This document shows, in pieces, positions 4,471 to 63,014 of a stretch of 64,000 bases of DNA. Numbering within the stretch: the first letter of the stretch is position 1; each line of letters opens with the position of its first letter. Both the position numbers and the translations under genes were made by a program. Origin of the DNA: Hyphomicrobiaceae bacterium (GTDB lineage Bacteria; Pseudomonadota; Alphaproteobacteria; Rhizobiales; Hyphomicrobiaceae); NCBI GenBank assembly GCA_030655135.1, contig JAURWC010000084.1, forward strand, positions 248,001 to 312,000, given 5' to 3'. The notes under the pieces are model-generated. The model had not been told where the DNA came from. It made no database searches and saw only the letters and a program-made list of their open reading frames with translations.

Positions 4471-4563
4471 GGGGTCAGACCTCGGTCTGACCCCTCGCGA
4501 GATCCGTTGAATTGATCACGCGGCTTGCGCCGTCGAACCAGGGTCAGACCGAGGTCTGACCCT
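4471..4563. repeat. Paired palindromic repeat (REP/BIME-like), copy A
   Basis: Two copies of one palindrome in inverted orientation flank a 45-nt spacer. Copy 1 (4471-4494) has 11-bp perfect arms around TC; copy 2 (4540-4563) has 11-bp perfect arms around GA. Arms are GGGTCAGACC and GGTCTGACCC. Each copy can fold alone, and the two can pair with each other. The element sits 3 bp from the acs stop codon, so it could also act as a 3'-end structure for acs mRNA. Related pairs lie at 20351-20436 and 61065-61159. Confidence 0.8.
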
Positions 4564-56830: not shown

Positions 56831-57724
56831 TTACTGCAGGCCGTAAGCGCAAAGATTGACGCGCTTCAGGCTCGGCCGCTTCATCGAAACGATCTCGATC
56901 CGGTCGATCGAACGGGTCCGTCCGCGAACAGAAATCGGTGCCGTTTCGCCGCCCTTGGGGATGTCGGCCCGGATCTGCAGATTGTCCGGCTCGCCATTCG
57001 AGTAGATGATGCGGGCGTCGAGCAGATGGATCTTCTGCCCCTCGGCGCGGAACTTCACGGCCTTGAAGCGGCCGTCGCGGCGCCCGACCGGGATCGTATC
57101 GCGATCTGCACCGAACAATGCCACGCTGCGGCAGCCAAGCTCGACCCATTCAGGCCGTCCGCCCCAACCCGGGCGCGGGCCGGGACCAGGACCGGCGCCT
57201 CGGCGCTCGCCTTCCTTGCCGTAGACTTCGACGACAGCGCGATCATCACGCCAGCGCTTTCCAGTCGAGCGATAGACGAATTCGATGCGGTCGATAGACC
57301 GGTCGCCACCCTTGAGGTCGATCGGACGCGTGCGCTGGCCTTCGCGGATGATCCCGTCGACCCGGAACGACTGACGGTCGTTATTGCCGAATACCACCGT
57401 CATTTCGCGGATTTCGACATCGCCGTTCTTCACGCTGAGAGCAAGGCTCTCGAAGCGGCCCTCGCGCCGTCCTACCCTGACGACATCGCGGTCACCGCGA
57501 AAGCTGACGGACTGCGAGCCGAGCAGCTCCCAATCGCCACCGCCCCGCCGGTCATCGCGCCGGTCATCTCTGCGGTCGTCGCGCCGATCGTCTCTGCGGT
57601 CATCCCGCCGGTCCGAACGGTCTCCGTCACGATCGCGGTCGCGCTGTGCGGACGCTGGTGCGGCCGCGACAGTCAGGGTGATCAATGCTGCGCAGAGCGC
57701 ATTGAACACAAATTTCACTGACAT
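56831..57724 (-). CDS. Secreted protein with Arg/Asp repeat and duplicated beta domain
   Basis: 297 residues from ATG 57724 (GGGAGG ~6 bp upstream). A signal peptide ends at PASA-Q (residue 26). Residues ~27-60 are a charged RDDR tandem repeat. Two related ~95-residue beta domains follow: WELLGSQSVSFRGDRDVVRVGRREGRFESL with SIDRIEFVYRS, and WVELGCRSVALFGADRDTIPVGRRDGRFKAV with SIDRIEIVSMK. A Gly/Pro linker joins them. The domain is a DUF2541-like type by impression only; no function is known. It would act in the periplasm or outside the cell. Confidence 0.75.
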   Translation of the reverse strand: MSVKFVFNALCAALITLTVAAAPASAQRDRDRDGDRSDRRDDRRDDRRDDRRDDRRDDRRGGGDWELLGSQSVSFRGDRDVVRVGRREGRFESLALSVKNGDVEIREMTVVFGNNDRQSFRVDGIIREGQRTRPIDLKGGDRSIDRIEFVYRSTGKRWRDDRAVVEVYGKEGERRGAGPGPGPRPGWGGRPEWVELGCRSVALFGADRDTIPVGRRDGRFKAVKFRAEGQKIHLLDARIIYSNGEPDNLQIRADIPKGGETAPISVRGRTRSIDRIEIVSMKRPSLKRVNLCAYGLQ

Positions 57725-57937
57725 TATTTTCCTCCCAGTACTCAAAAAGCGCGCCGCCTGGCAGCGGCTTCGAACCGGCATCACGGTGCCAAATCTGGCG
57801 ATAGTCAGACTTTACGGCACGCACATGGCGGTTGTGACATAACCGGCATAAGTGCCCCTACAAATTCGCTAGAATGCGCCCGGCCAGCGCCGGCAGATCC
57901 AGAACTGAGGTCCGCCAACCCGATGCGCTGTCGCCAG

Positions 57938-59803
57938 CTACTCCGCCGCCTCGCGCGCCAGGAAGCCGCCCGACTGGCGGGCCCAAAGCTCCGCATAGAG
58001 TCCGCCGCGCGCCAGCAACTCCTTGTGTGAACCCTCCTCCACGATGGCTCCCTGATCCATGATGATCAGCCGGTCCATCGCCGCGATTGTCGACAGCCGG
58101 TGCGCGATCGCGATCACGGTCTTGCCTTCCATCAAGTTGTACAGCTGCTCCTGGATAGCCTGCTCCACCTCGCTGTCGAGCGCGCTCGTCGCCTCGTCGA
58201 GAATGAGGATCGGCGCGTTCTTCAGCAGCACCCGCGCAATGGCGACGCGCTGCCGCTGTCCGCCAGACAGCTTTACGCCGCGCTCGCCGGTGTGCGCCTG
58301 GTATCCCGTGCGCCCGTTCAGATCCTGCAACCCGACGATGAAATCGTGCGCGTGCGCTTTCTTCGCGGCGGCGATCGCCTGCTCCTCGCCGCCGTCCGGC
58401 CGGCCGTAGAGAATGTTTTCCAGCACCGAGCGATGCAGGAGCGACGTATCCTGCGTCACCATGCCGATGGCCGCGCGCAGGCTGTCCTGCGTCACCTTCG
58501 AGACGTCCTGCCCGTCGATCAGTAGCCGGCCGCCGTCCAGATCCCAGAAGCGCATCAGCAGGTTGACCAGCGTCGACTTGCCCGCGCCCGAACGGCCGAC
58601 AAGCCCCACCTTCTCGCCCGGCGCGATCCTCAGCGTCAGGTTCTCGATGATGTGCCCGCGCTTTTCCTGCGGGTTGCGCCCGTAGTTGAAGCGGATGTTC
58701 TCGTAGCGGATCTCACCCTTAGGCACGGTCAGCGCCTTGGCACCCTCCGCGTCCACCACCTTGCGGTCCTTGGCGATGGTGACCAGGCCGTCATGGATCA
58801 CGCCGATCTGTTCAAACAGGCTAGCCGTTTCCCACATGATCCAGTGCGCCATGCCCTGCATGCGCAGCACCAGGCCGATAGCAAACGCGATCGCACCCGT
58901 GGTAACGGCACCGATCGACCACAGCCAGATCGCCGTACCCGTGATCGAGAACAGCAGCATGCAGTTCAGCGTGTTGAGCGTCAGCGTCAGCAGCGTCACC
59001 AGCCGCATCTGGCTCTGCACGGAATCCAGAAATGGCGACATGCCGCCCTGCGCATACGCGTCCTCACGATCCGCATGCGCGAACATCTTCACGGTAGCGA
59101 TGTTGGTGTAGGTATCGACGATGCGCCCCGTCATGACGGAGCGCGCATCCGACTGAACCGTCGAGATCGCACCCAGCTTCGGAATGAAATAGCGCAAGGC
59201 CGCCACGTAGCCCGTGAACCACAGCAGCATCGGCGCCGTCAGGCGCAGATCGCTGACCGCAAACATCAGCAGCGCGCCGGTAAAGTACACGCCGACGTAA
59301 ACGAACACCTCCGTCAGCTTCATCACCATTTCGCGCACGGCAAGCGACGTCTGCATCACCTTGGTGGAAACACGGCCGGCGAAGTCGTCGTTGAAGAATT
59401 CCATCGACTGCCGCAGCACGTAGCGGTGCATCATCCACCGCGTGCGCATGGCGAAGTTGCCCATGATGCCTTGGTGCAGCACGGCTTCGTACCAGAACTT
59501 CAACACCGGAATGACGACGAGCACGACGACGCCCATGCCGAGGAAGAACCAGCCGTGCTCGGAAAACACGGTCTTGGGATCCGTCGTGCCCAGCCAGTCG
59601 ACCAGCCGGCCCAGGAAGGCAAACAGCGACACCTCGATCAATGCCACGACCGCCGCAAGGACGGACGTCCCGAGGATCAGCCAGCGCACCGGCCAAGTGT
59701 AATGCAGGACGAATCCGCGGAAATCCGACGGCGGCCGCACGGCCGGCGCCGGGGGAAACGGATCGAGCCTGGTTTCAAGCCAGCGGAAGACGCGGGCGAA
59801 CAT
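57938..59803 (-). CDS. ABC transporter, fused permease and ATPase (exporter type)
   Basis: 621 residues, GGAGCG upstream. N-terminal six-helix exporter domain (about 40-330), then the ATPase: Walker A GRSGAGKST, signature LSGGQRQRVAIARVLL, Walker B ILILDEATSALD and switch IAHRLSTI. One such protein forms a homodimer. The substrate (lipid, peptide or drug) cannot be told from sequence. The 213-bp gap to the secreted-protein gene shows no feature. It is divergent from hemF; a short AGACCC/GGGTCT hairpin lies at 59815-59830, ahead of its start. Confidence 0.88.
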   Translation of the reverse strand: MFARVFRWLETRLDPFPPAPAVRPPSDFRGFVLHYTWPVRWLILGTSVLAAVVALIEVSLFAFLGRLVDWLGTTDPKTVFSEHGWFFLGMGVVVLVVIPVLKFWYEAVLHQGIMGNFAMRTRWMMHRYVLRQSMEFFNDDFAGRVSTKVMQTSLAVREMVMKLTEVFVYVGVYFTGALLMFAVSDLRLTAPMLLWFTGYVAALRYFIPKLGAISTVQSDARSVMTGRIVDTYTNIATVKMFAHADREDAYAQGGMSPFLDSVQSQMRLVTLLTLTLNTLNCMLLFSITGTAIWLWSIGAVTTGAIAFAIGLVLRMQGMAHWIMWETASLFEQIGVIHDGLVTIAKDRKVVDAEGAKALTVPKGEIRYENIRFNYGRNPQEKRGHIIENLTLRIAPGEKVGLVGRSGAGKSTLVNLLMRFWDLDGGRLLIDGQDVSKVTQDSLRAAIGMVTQDTSLLHRSVLENILYGRPDGGEEQAIAAAKKAHAHDFIVGLQDLNGRTGYQAHTGERGVKLSGGQRQRVAIARVLLKNAPILILDEATSALDSEVEQAIQEQLYNLMEGKTVIAIAHRLSTIAAMDRLIIMDQGAIVEEGSHKELLARGGLYAELWARQSGGFLAREAAE

Positions 59804-61064: not shown

Positions 61065-61159
61065 GGGGTCAGACCTCGGTCTGACCCCAGCAACCGGCGC
61101 TCCCGATCATTCGATAAACGGCCCCGGCATCTCAACAGGTCAGACCGACGTCGGACCCT
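61065..61159. repeat. Paired palindromic repeat (REP/BIME-like), copy C
   Basis: Left unit 61065-61088 is identical over 24 bp to the left unit of copy A. The right unit 61137-61159 is inverted and degenerate (AGGTCAGACC-GA-CGTCGGACCCT). A 48-nt spacer separates them. The right unit overlaps the stop codon of the channel-like gene by two bases, and the left unit lies just past the hemF stop, so the element bridges two convergent 3' ends. Confidence 0.75.
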
Positions 61160-62267
61160 ACTTCCCCTCGACCCCGAACCACTTGTCGTGCAACGCCTGA
61201 TACGTTCCGTCTTCGCGGATCGCCAGCAGGGCGCCGTCGACGCGCTTTCGCCATTCGCTGCCGCGCTGGAACACGATGCCGTAGTCCTGCTTGCGGAAGA
61301 CGGAGCCAACCACCTGCGCCCGGCCCTTGCCGTCGGTGTTGGCGTAGTAGAGCAGTACTGGCGAGTCGAACACGACGGCATCCACCTCGCGGTTGAGCAG
61401 CGCGCCATAGGCGTCCGTGATCTTTTCATACGGTTTCATCTGCGACCGCAGCTCTTCCAGATACGTCGCCGAAGTCGAGCCCTTGATCGTCCCGACCTTC
61501 TTACCCGGCAGATCTTCCGGTCCGTTGATGGCCCCCTGGATCTGTTCCACGGTCAGCGTCGCCGTCAACTGCGCCGTGTAGTACGCCACGAAGATCACGC
61601 CGACGAACATCCACAGGATGGCAAAGATCCGCCCCACCCAACTGCGCGGCATCGACTCGCCCTGCGTCGCCAGCGTTCCAGCCGCCCACCACAGCGCGTG
61701 CAGAATACCCGGATAGTAGGGCTCGCCCGCGGGCACGATGCCGTCGGGATGCTTCCGCTCCAGCCACCACACGATATGAGCTGGAATGATGATCAGCAGC
61801 GCGGCAATGCCCAGCCACACCAGCGCCGCTTTCGAAAACACCGACCGCAACAAGCCGCCGAGCGGATTGGGCGGCCCACCGCCACCATCGCCGCGCACCA
61901 GGATCTGCAAGCCGCTGTCCATCATCGGCTGGGAGAAGTCGAGCACCTTGTCGCGCTCGGCCGTGACCGAGATCGCCGCGATGCCAAGATCGGCCTGCTG
62001 CGACTTCACGAGTTCAAGGAGCGACGGCACGTCTTTGGCGAAGACGAATTCCGTCTCGATTTTCAGCCGGTCGGCTATGGCGCGCCACAGATCGATGCTG
62101 AACCCCGTCAGCTCGCCCTTCTTCTCGACGACGAACGGCTCCAACACGCGCGTGGCGACCTTGAGCTTTTGCGGCTCCTGCGCCGATACCACCTGCGCCG
62201 AAACCTGAGCTGTCATCGGCAGCGCCAGCATCAAGACAGCCGTCAGCGCCAACAGAAATCTAAGCAT
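61158..62267 (-). CDS. Ionotropic-glutamate-receptor-like channel/substrate-binding protein
   Basis: 369 residues. After a signal peptide (~1-24) comes a split periplasmic binding domain. Lobe 1 (~35-125) has the carboxylate-binding Arg105 in ISVTAERDKVLDFSQP. A membrane module follows: M1 ~147-168, a re-entrant pore segment ~185-203 and M2 ~211-232. Lobe 2 then resumes with the amine-site Asp301 (VVFDSPV). The YTAQLTATLTVEQ segment after M2 parallels the SYTANLAAF motif of animal glutamate receptors. The pore reads WWAAGTLATQGE and lacks the TVGYG potassium filter of GluR0. AGGGCGG upstream supports the start. Ligand and ion are unknown. Confidence 0.85.
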   Translation of the reverse strand: MLRFLLALTAVLMLALPMTAQVSAQVVSAQEPQKLKVATRVLEPFVVEKKGELTGFSIDLWRAIADRLKIETEFVFAKDVPSLLELVKSQQADLGIAAISVTAERDKVLDFSQPMMDSGLQILVRGDGGGGPPNPLGGLLRSVFSKAALVWLGIAALLIIIPAHIVWWLERKHPDGIVPAGEPYYPGILHALWWAAGTLATQGESMPRSWVGRIFAILWMFVGVIFVAYYTAQLTATLTVEQIQGAINGPEDLPGKKVGTIKGSTSATYLEELRSQMKPYEKITDAYGALLNREVDAVVFDSPVLLYYANTDGKGRAQVVGSVFRKQDYGIVFQRGSEWRKRVDGALLAIREDGTYQALHDKWFGVEGK

Positions 62268-62297: not shown

Positions 62298-63014
62298 TTA
62301 CCAGGCCATCGGCTTCTTGTCTTTGAAGAAGCCGCCCGTGGGCCCATCGTCCGGCAGCGTCGCCAGCCAGACCGCGGTCTCCGCGCCCTGGTCCACCGGG
62401 CGCTCGGCATTGGCGCCGCCCATGTCAGTTTGCACCCAACCCGGATGCATCGAGTTGATCTTGATGTTGCCCGGCCCGATCTCGGCGGCAAAAACGCGCG
62501 TTAGCACGTTGATCGAGGCCTTCGACAGCCGGTAGGCCGGCCAGTTGCCGCCCATCTCCGCCAGCTGACCCAGCGCCGACGACATGTTGACGATGCGGCC
62601 GTAGTTGTTCTTCTGCATAAGCGGAATGGCGCGCTGGATCAGCCGCAACGGCCCCAGCACGTTGGTGTTGAACGTGTGCGCAATCGTTTCGATGGACACA
62701 TTCATCGCTGTCGTGCCGGTGCTCGGCCCGTCCTGCATGATGCCCGCATTGTTGACCAGGATATCGAGCCGCCCGCCGAACAGCTCCTCGACCTGCTTTA
62801 AGCCCGCCGCGCAGCTCTCGTCGCTGTCGACATCGATCGGCACGACGCCGACCTCGATGCCTTCCGACAGCAGCTTGTCGGCCGCGGCCTGCGCCTTCAC
62901 CGGATCGCGCGCGCTGAGCACCGTCACGACCCCCAGCCGCTCCAGCTGCCGCACGATTTCAAACCCGATCCCCCTGTTCGCGCCTGTCACCAGCGCGATC
63001 CGCGTCTCAGCCAT
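62298..63014 (-). CDS. Short-chain dehydrogenase/reductase
   Basis: 238 residues. The classical SDR elements are all present: cofactor loop TGANRGIG, NNAG (LVNNAGIM), catalytic Ser in VNMSSALG and the YxxxK pair as YRLSK. The C-terminal MHPGWVQTDMGGANAERPVDQGAET resembles the carbonyl-reductase-like plant/bacterial group using NADP(H). The substrate is unknown. It is 30 bp upstream of the channel-like gene on the same strand and may share its transcript. Confidence 0.88.
   Translation of the reverse strand: MAETRIALVTGANRGIGFEIVRQLERLGVVTVLSARDPVKAQAAADKLLSEGIEVGVVPIDVDSDESCAAGLKQVEELFGGRLDILVNNAGIMQDGPSTGTTAMNVSIETIAHTFNTNVLGPLRLIQRAIPLMQKNNYGRIVNMSSALGQLAEMGGNWPAYRLSKASINVLTRVFAAEIGPGNIKINSMHPGWVQTDMGGANAERPVDQGAETAVWLATLPDDGPTGGFFKDKKPMAW

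Follow-up and report, generated by a model that had tools for sequence, protein, structure and literature searches.

A prokaryotic ionotropic-glutamate-receptor-like gene with a short and probably non-K+-selective pore filter in a Hyphomicrobiaceae bacterium

Analysis of a 64,000-nucleotide stretch of the genome of a Hyphomicrobiaceae bacterium (GenBank assembly GCA_030655135.1, contig JAURWC010000084.1, positions 248,001 to 312,000; in the following, the window) revealed a gene whose product is most likely a tetrameric, amino-acid-gated cation channel without a strong preference for K+. The gene appears to encode one subunit of a prokaryotic ionotropic glutamate receptor. Following a signal peptide, both lobes of a clamshell of the glutamine/glutamate type are predicted to lie in the periplasm; M1, a re-entrant pore loop and M3 are inserted into the clamshell, and there is neither an M4 helix nor an amino-terminal domain. 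The channel is probably made of four subunits. Binding of an amino acid between Arg105 and Asp301, most likely of L-glutamate or a closely related compound, would close the clamshell, and this would pull on the end of M3 (YTAQLTATLT) and open the pore. Several cations are likely to pass, not K+ alone, because in place of the K+ filter stands one that is two residues shorter and carries a glutamine and an acidic residue (ATQGE). With the pore open, Na+, K+ or Ca2+ would flow down their gradients and depolarise the cell, and a burst of external amino acid may in this way be turned into an electrical or ionic signal. The build of the protein, its homology, its conserved binding residues, its constraint within the genus and the absence of binding-protein-dependent permease matches from the contig are direct observations.

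The complete coding sequence is located at positions 61158..62267 of the window on the minus strand and comprises 369 amino acids from ATG to stop. It is more than a chance reading frame, since its orthologue in the same genus differs by a dS of 0.81 versus a dN of 0.10, and other genera also have proteins built in this way. A type-3 solute-binding domain (Pfam SBP_bac_3, residues 35-365, E 1.3e-29) is divided by M1, the pore loop and M3, which are covered by a Lig_chan match (residues 150-256, E 3.7e-20, 72.7 bits versus a cut-off of 30.8). The first-pass annotation, made from the letters alone, had described a binding-protein domain into which a helix, a pore loop and a second helix are inserted and had proposed the build of a GluR0-type receptor. 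Both profile searches that it recommended gave matches, with Lig_chan far over its cut-off; the membrane segments do align with Lig_chan, a point on which it had staked its proposal, and the pore alone brings up glutamate receptors. At E 1e-3 the channel gene is the sole Lig_chan match in its genome.

Along the protein, all on the minus strand, a signal peptide region at about residues 1-25 (62193..62267, hydropathy peak at residue 13) is followed by the S1 lobe at residues 35-127 (61887..62165, from SBP_bac_3 and the alignment to the solved structure 2pyy), M1 at residues 148-171 (61755..61826, from hydropathy and the Lig_chan match), the pore loop at residues 187-204 with the filter ATQGE at its end (61656..61709, from the pore search and the alignment of relatives) and M3 at residues 210-240 (61548..61640, from hydropathy). 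Pore alignments place the gate motif YTAQLTATLTVEQ at residues 230-242 (61542..61580), opposite YTANLAAFLTVER of animal receptors. The S2 lobe at residues 243-367 (61167..61541, from SBP_bac_3 and the alignment to 2pyy) is followed by no M4 helix; the protein, of 369 residues, ends after it and has neither this helix nor the amino-terminal domain of AMPA and kainate receptors. Arg105 (61953..61955) and Asp301 (61365..61367), the pair named in the first-pass annotation, were found at exactly these residues and are the expected holders of the alpha-carboxylate and the alpha-amino group of the ligand, respectively (roles from PMC2950845).

A 19-residue hydropathy scan gave three peaks over 1.3, at residue 13 (signal peptide), 157 (M1) and 223 (M3), and no such peak in the pore loop. 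The signal peptide agrees with a location of both lobes outside, as do the two membrane helices of full length with a pore loop that shows no full peak between them. A placement of the lobes on different sides of the membrane, which had been named as evidence against the proposal, did not come true, as helices and pore loop would keep them on one side, although the charges of the loops (+1 ahead of M1, -1 and +1 in the loops presumed to be inside, and -1 past M3) do not decide the topology. For GluR0, both ends were reportedly placed outside by experiment, with an orientation opposite to that of K+ channels (PMC13099474). An AlphaFold2 model from a two-sequence input (window protein and L003) was of no use (pLDDT 38.0, pTM 0.22) and gave low-confidence hints of helices at residues 146-172, 186-205 and 210-234.

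In the ligand-binding lobes the best solved relative is chain 2pyy_A, described as 'ionotropic glutamate receptor bacterial homologue' (E 1.3e-64), followed by glutamine-type binding proteins and then by eukaryotic receptors, which align from residue 84-88 to 364-365, pore included. We take 2pyy to derive from Nostoc punctiforme and to bind L-glutamate. Its chain of 228 residues is the ligand core, and the comparison over both lobes gave 113 identical among 218 aligned residues (52%). All four binding residues checked (Arg105, Ser264, Thr265 and Asp301) have an identical partner in 2pyy. Within the clade of relatives with a short filter that is described below, Arg105 is conserved in 14 of the 14 rows covering the position and Asp301 in 14 out of 15. 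A cyanobacterial member encoded on plasmid pA of Kovacikia minuta (L072) has no aspartate opposite Asp301 (APAPLLLYY), and its ligand may differ from that of the other members.

It is most improbable that the protein is an ordinary substrate-binding protein of an ABC transporter. Two annotated relatives are labelled 'transporter substrate-binding domain-containing protein' and the best NCBIfam model is GlnH, yet its 152.3 bits amount to half the curated cut-off of 303, none of the 12 listed NCBIfam models exceeded its own cut-off, and the domain is split by two membrane helices and carries a Lig_chan match far over the cut-off. Moreover, none of the 16 BPD_transp_1 matches of the genome, which would mark a binding-protein-dependent permease, lies on the contig of the channel gene. 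The first-pass annotation had argued against an ordinary binding protein from linkage to a short-chain dehydrogenase (SDR) gene rather than to ABC permease genes. The SDR gene is indeed present (62298..63014, minus strand), 30 bp upstream of the channel start and on the same strand, and the contig is free of binding-protein-dependent permease matches, but the linkage was found only within the genus: it was kept in the other genome of the genus (E 2.5e-138), one of eight orthologous stretches, and not found in the seven others. For three of the eight stretches this absence is weak evidence, because the contig is short (5.8 to 6.8 kb) or the stretch begins within the channel gene. The contrast of SDR with ABC genes is a weak argument, because neighbours differ between genera and a gene for an exporter-type ABC protein with fused membrane and ATPase domains is located at 57938-59803 on the strand of the channel gene. 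Exporter-type ABC proteins make no use of binding proteins as far as known. The absence of all 16 permease matches from the contig is better evidence against an ordinary binding protein than the SDR linkage.

Between the channel and the ABC gene lies a coproporphyrinogen III oxidase gene (hemF), convergent to the channel gene. Ten open reading frames adjoining the channel gene, picked mechanically from six orthologous stretches, belong to unrelated families, two of them without a match; the families found elsewhere are patatin, GST, PspA, DUF2270, GAF/HATPase, SOUL, flavodoxin and a TPP enzyme. The neighbourhood was dropped as a clue to function, as neighbours are unrelated between genera and the SDR gene occurs in one of eight stretches. 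The palindrome GGGGTCAGACCNNGGTCTGACCCC was observed between the channel and the oxidase gene (61065-61088) and again at 4471-4494. It has 28 sites in the genome, some of them clustered, as on contig C22 with three sites 176 bp apart, and the same pattern read backwards as a control has none; its appearance is that of a palindromic repeat dispersed over the genome or of a shared terminator. The window also encodes a DUF2541 protein (56831-57784) with an Asp-Arg repeat run (RDDRRDDRRDD) near its start.

The pore segment WWAAGTLATQGE spans residues 193-204. As the first-pass annotation had noticed, TVGYG is absent; the filter region is WWAAGTLATQGESMPRSWVGR, with ATQGE in place of the K+ signature. 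A query of 114 residues comprising the pore only was searched against solved structures. It matched 287 distinct sequences (best 46.7 bits), and the best 60 of these 287 were all glutamate receptors, named glutamate receptors 1-4, kainate receptors 2 and 3 or 'Glutamate receptor', with no K+ channel among them. The pore of L047, which has a filter of the same type (LAGQATDMP), likewise gave only glutamate receptors in the best 60 of 112 matches, a plant receptor being first with 44.0 bits, and the pore of L027 (VVNGGFEE) gave glutamate receptors in the best 60 of 62, at 28.1 bits or less. Of two pores with TVGYG, that of L010 retrieved a plant receptor first (46.5 bits), K+ channels in 45 of the 60 matches listed and also NMDA receptors, and that of L031 retrieved K+ channels in all 60 matches listed, counting 'Lmo2059 protein', which we presume to be a K+ channel, as one. 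The top glutamate-receptor score is equal for the K+-type L010 and for the channel protein, and the difference lies in the K+ channels, which are listed beside them for L010 but not among the best 60 matches of the channel protein.

These searches bear on the possibility that the channel is still K+-selective in spite of the missing TVGYG, for which relatives with TVGYG in the same bacterial family (4 of the 11 matching genomes) and a weak match to Pfam Ion_trans_2 (29.3 bits versus a cut-off of 22.5) can be cited. In the alignment of relatives, however, the filter is two residues shorter than K+ filters and contains no GYG, and together with the lack of K+ channels among the best pore matches this makes K+ selectivity quite improbable. 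A channel passing several cations is preferred.

Filter types were followed through several surveys. In the bacterial family, 11 of 103 genomes, own genome included, had a match at E 1e-20, and the loci fetched from these showed a short glutamine filter in 6 genomes (own included), TVGYG in 4 and a third type in 1. Pore types were split by genus: K+ filters in L010-L013, short glutamine filters in L005-L009 and the third type in L014. Pore type thus differs between near relatives, because K+, glutamine and third filters sit in different genera of one family. Again with the own genome counted, 64 of 397 genomes of the order matched at 1e-25 and, with PF00060, 77 of 398 genomes of the phylum at 1e-3, 22 of these over the cut-off; the class had close relatives (1e-55) in 3 of 385 genomes and the phylum in 10 of 398. 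Among plasmids, 52 records matched at 1e-15, 10 of them covering at least 80% of the query and none reaching at least 60% identity; the best-ranked match, from the cyanobacterium Kovacikia minuta, was 39.5% identical over 92% of the query. No relative turned up in two scans of viral contigs. Three Salmonella enterica plasmids encode a protein annotated as transporter substrate-binding protein that matches over 93% of the query at about 27% identity and perhaps represents another group of these receptors. The congeneric genome G095 has a second, weaker Lig_chan match in a 393-residue frame (C498:3808-4074, 27.2 bits, below the cut-off).

In a tree of 60 rows from which the signal and filter columns were left out, 15 short-filter rows and L087 formed one clade with a support of 100/99. 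Its 16 members comprise 14 from the order of the window, L087 from elsewhere in the class and one cyanobacterium. A quick tree without L087 placed the 15 short-filter rows on one side of a branch (support 97), and TVGYG rows need 3 changes on the 60-row tree. The family alignment left out the own-genome copies L001 and L004, the distant own-genome match L002, the fragment L015, L003 (by length and position the same record as L005), seven short TVGYG proteins that stay under the Lig_chan cut-off (L037-L039, L041-L044), the identical copies L045, L046, L053 and L057, and L075-L078 and L088-L092, whose places were already represented; L009 and L035 were kept though partial. In the alignment without L087, Trp194, Gln202, Phe226, Ala232 and Thr239 are present in 15 of 15 rows. 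In the survey of pore residues in orthologues, another suggested check, Gln202 is kept in 15 of 16 clade members; the following position is variable (Q 6, A 4, G 2, S 2, D 1 of 15) and L087 has an alanine or a gap in place of the glutamine. L087, from another family of the class, has the filter STLVSAGEMP; this looks like a secondary loss, because L087 is nested inside the clade (support 99/92). A glutamine at or beside the filter position also occurs outside the clade, in L058, L025, L035 and L074.

Constraint was estimated against the congeneric orthologue (Proteobacteria bacterium isolate YS2.bin16, 85% identity, 364 codons), from which the channel gene differs by a dS of 0.805 and a dN of 0.097, with an overall dN/dS of 0.121. 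By region, dN/dS was 0.069 in S1, 0.093 in S2, 0.172 on few differences in M1, and lowest in the pore loop and M3 with 0.056, on a small count of about 4.5 non-synonymous differences. In 8 of 14 relatives (L005, L006, L007, L009, L016, L017, L047 and L072) the pore loop and M3 were closer to those of the window than either comparable lobe, with L009 comparable with S2 only; in 5 of 14 (L048-L052) pore identity (32-43%) was below both lobes, and in L008 it was below S1. The low dN/dS within the genus and the position of the L048-L052 pores below both lobes indicate a pore tightly kept among near relatives and drifting in the distant half of the clade.

This pattern also weighs on the view that the protein is a non-conducting, membrane-anchored amino-acid sensor or binding protein, in which the pore module serves as an anchor or signal relay. 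Variation of the filter between members, the loss of its glutamine in L087 and the five relatives in which the pore is less window-like than the lobes would fit such a sensor, whereas the lowest within-genus dN/dS in pore loop and M3, few as the differences are, and the eight relatives with a better-kept pore argue against it. We consider the sensor unlikely and retain the cation channel.

How the pore relates to that of eukaryotic receptors was addressed by alignments and trees. From the pore loop to M3, 24 of 57 residues are identical to GluA4 and 23 of 57 to GluK2. HMMER places TQG opposite the animal QQG and Glu204 opposite the acidic residue four positions past the Q/R site; MAFFT puts the pore gap elsewhere, and the residue facing the Q/R site is therefore aligner-dependent. 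In animal receptors, the Q/R site and the acidic residue at +4 carry weight (PMC12226733). A pore tree of 63 segments and 115 columns united the four eukaryotic sequences in one group (support 86), and none of four bacterial partners proposed for the eukaryotic pore was rejected by AU tests. A special kinship of the channel-protein pore with the eukaryotic pore is not claimed, as p ranged from 0.39 to 0.76 for all four groupings. The three branches reported in PMC3483616, one of bacterial, one of plant and one of other eukaryotic receptors, also speak against such a tie. Tentatively, the clade could be a living bacterial counterpart of the AMPA/kainate pore, glutamate-gated, non-selective, perhaps Ca2+-permeable and with a glutamine filter; we regard this as possible rather than probable. 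If true, the eukaryotic type of pore would have a minimal bacterial form that does without M4 and amino-terminal domain. In the usual account of its origin, the non-selective pore of eukaryotes arose from a K+ pore, and a small bacterial protein with an AMPA/kainate-like filter and gate would be a simple system for studying the origin of non-selective permeation and the minimal needs of a glutamate-gated channel.

Prokaryotic receptors without a K+ filter are already known. Ger et al. 2010 described 22 prokaryotic proteins of S1-M1-P-M3-S2 topology, of which 12 carry a K+ filter and form Group 1, while the 10 of Group 2 lack it; they called Group 2 closest to eukaryotic receptors and saw in its P regions no likeness to a channel of known selectivity (PMC2950845). 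A screen of 971 genomes by Croset et al. 2010 yielded 23 prokaryotic receptors (PMC2924276). In two reviews GluR0 is spoken of as K+-selective (PMC12551409, PMC11479355), and in PMC6385376 a viral K+ pore was joined to an animal binding domain and GluR0 taken as the precursor type. Neither a functional test of a Group 2 protein nor a description of the clade with the short glutamine filter was found in the open literature searched, although work beyond it may hold both; the only prokaryotic receptor channel with transport data in the literature examined was the K+-type GluR0. As the non-K+ kind dates from 2010, what is new here is a sharper description of one subgroup.

Compared with these systems, the channel protein shares with Synechocystis GluR0 (Group 1) the overall build and the lack of an M4 helix and an amino-terminal domain; GluR0 bears the K+ signature and transports K+, in contrast to the shorter filter without TVGYG found here. 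By its topology and missing K+ filter it appears to fit the published description of Ger Group 2, on which the comparison is based; the conserved Arg and Asp are a further likeness, but its pore is recognisably like that of animal glutamate receptors. Alignment of the pore with eukaryotic receptors, also recommended in the first-pass annotation, matched pore loop and M3 to those of animal AMPA and kainate receptors end to end, with QQG versus TQG and SSYTANLAAFLTVER versus AYYTAQLTATLTVEQ. In contrast to these receptors, the channel protein has no M4 helix and no amino-terminal domain and is one residue shorter between QG and P.
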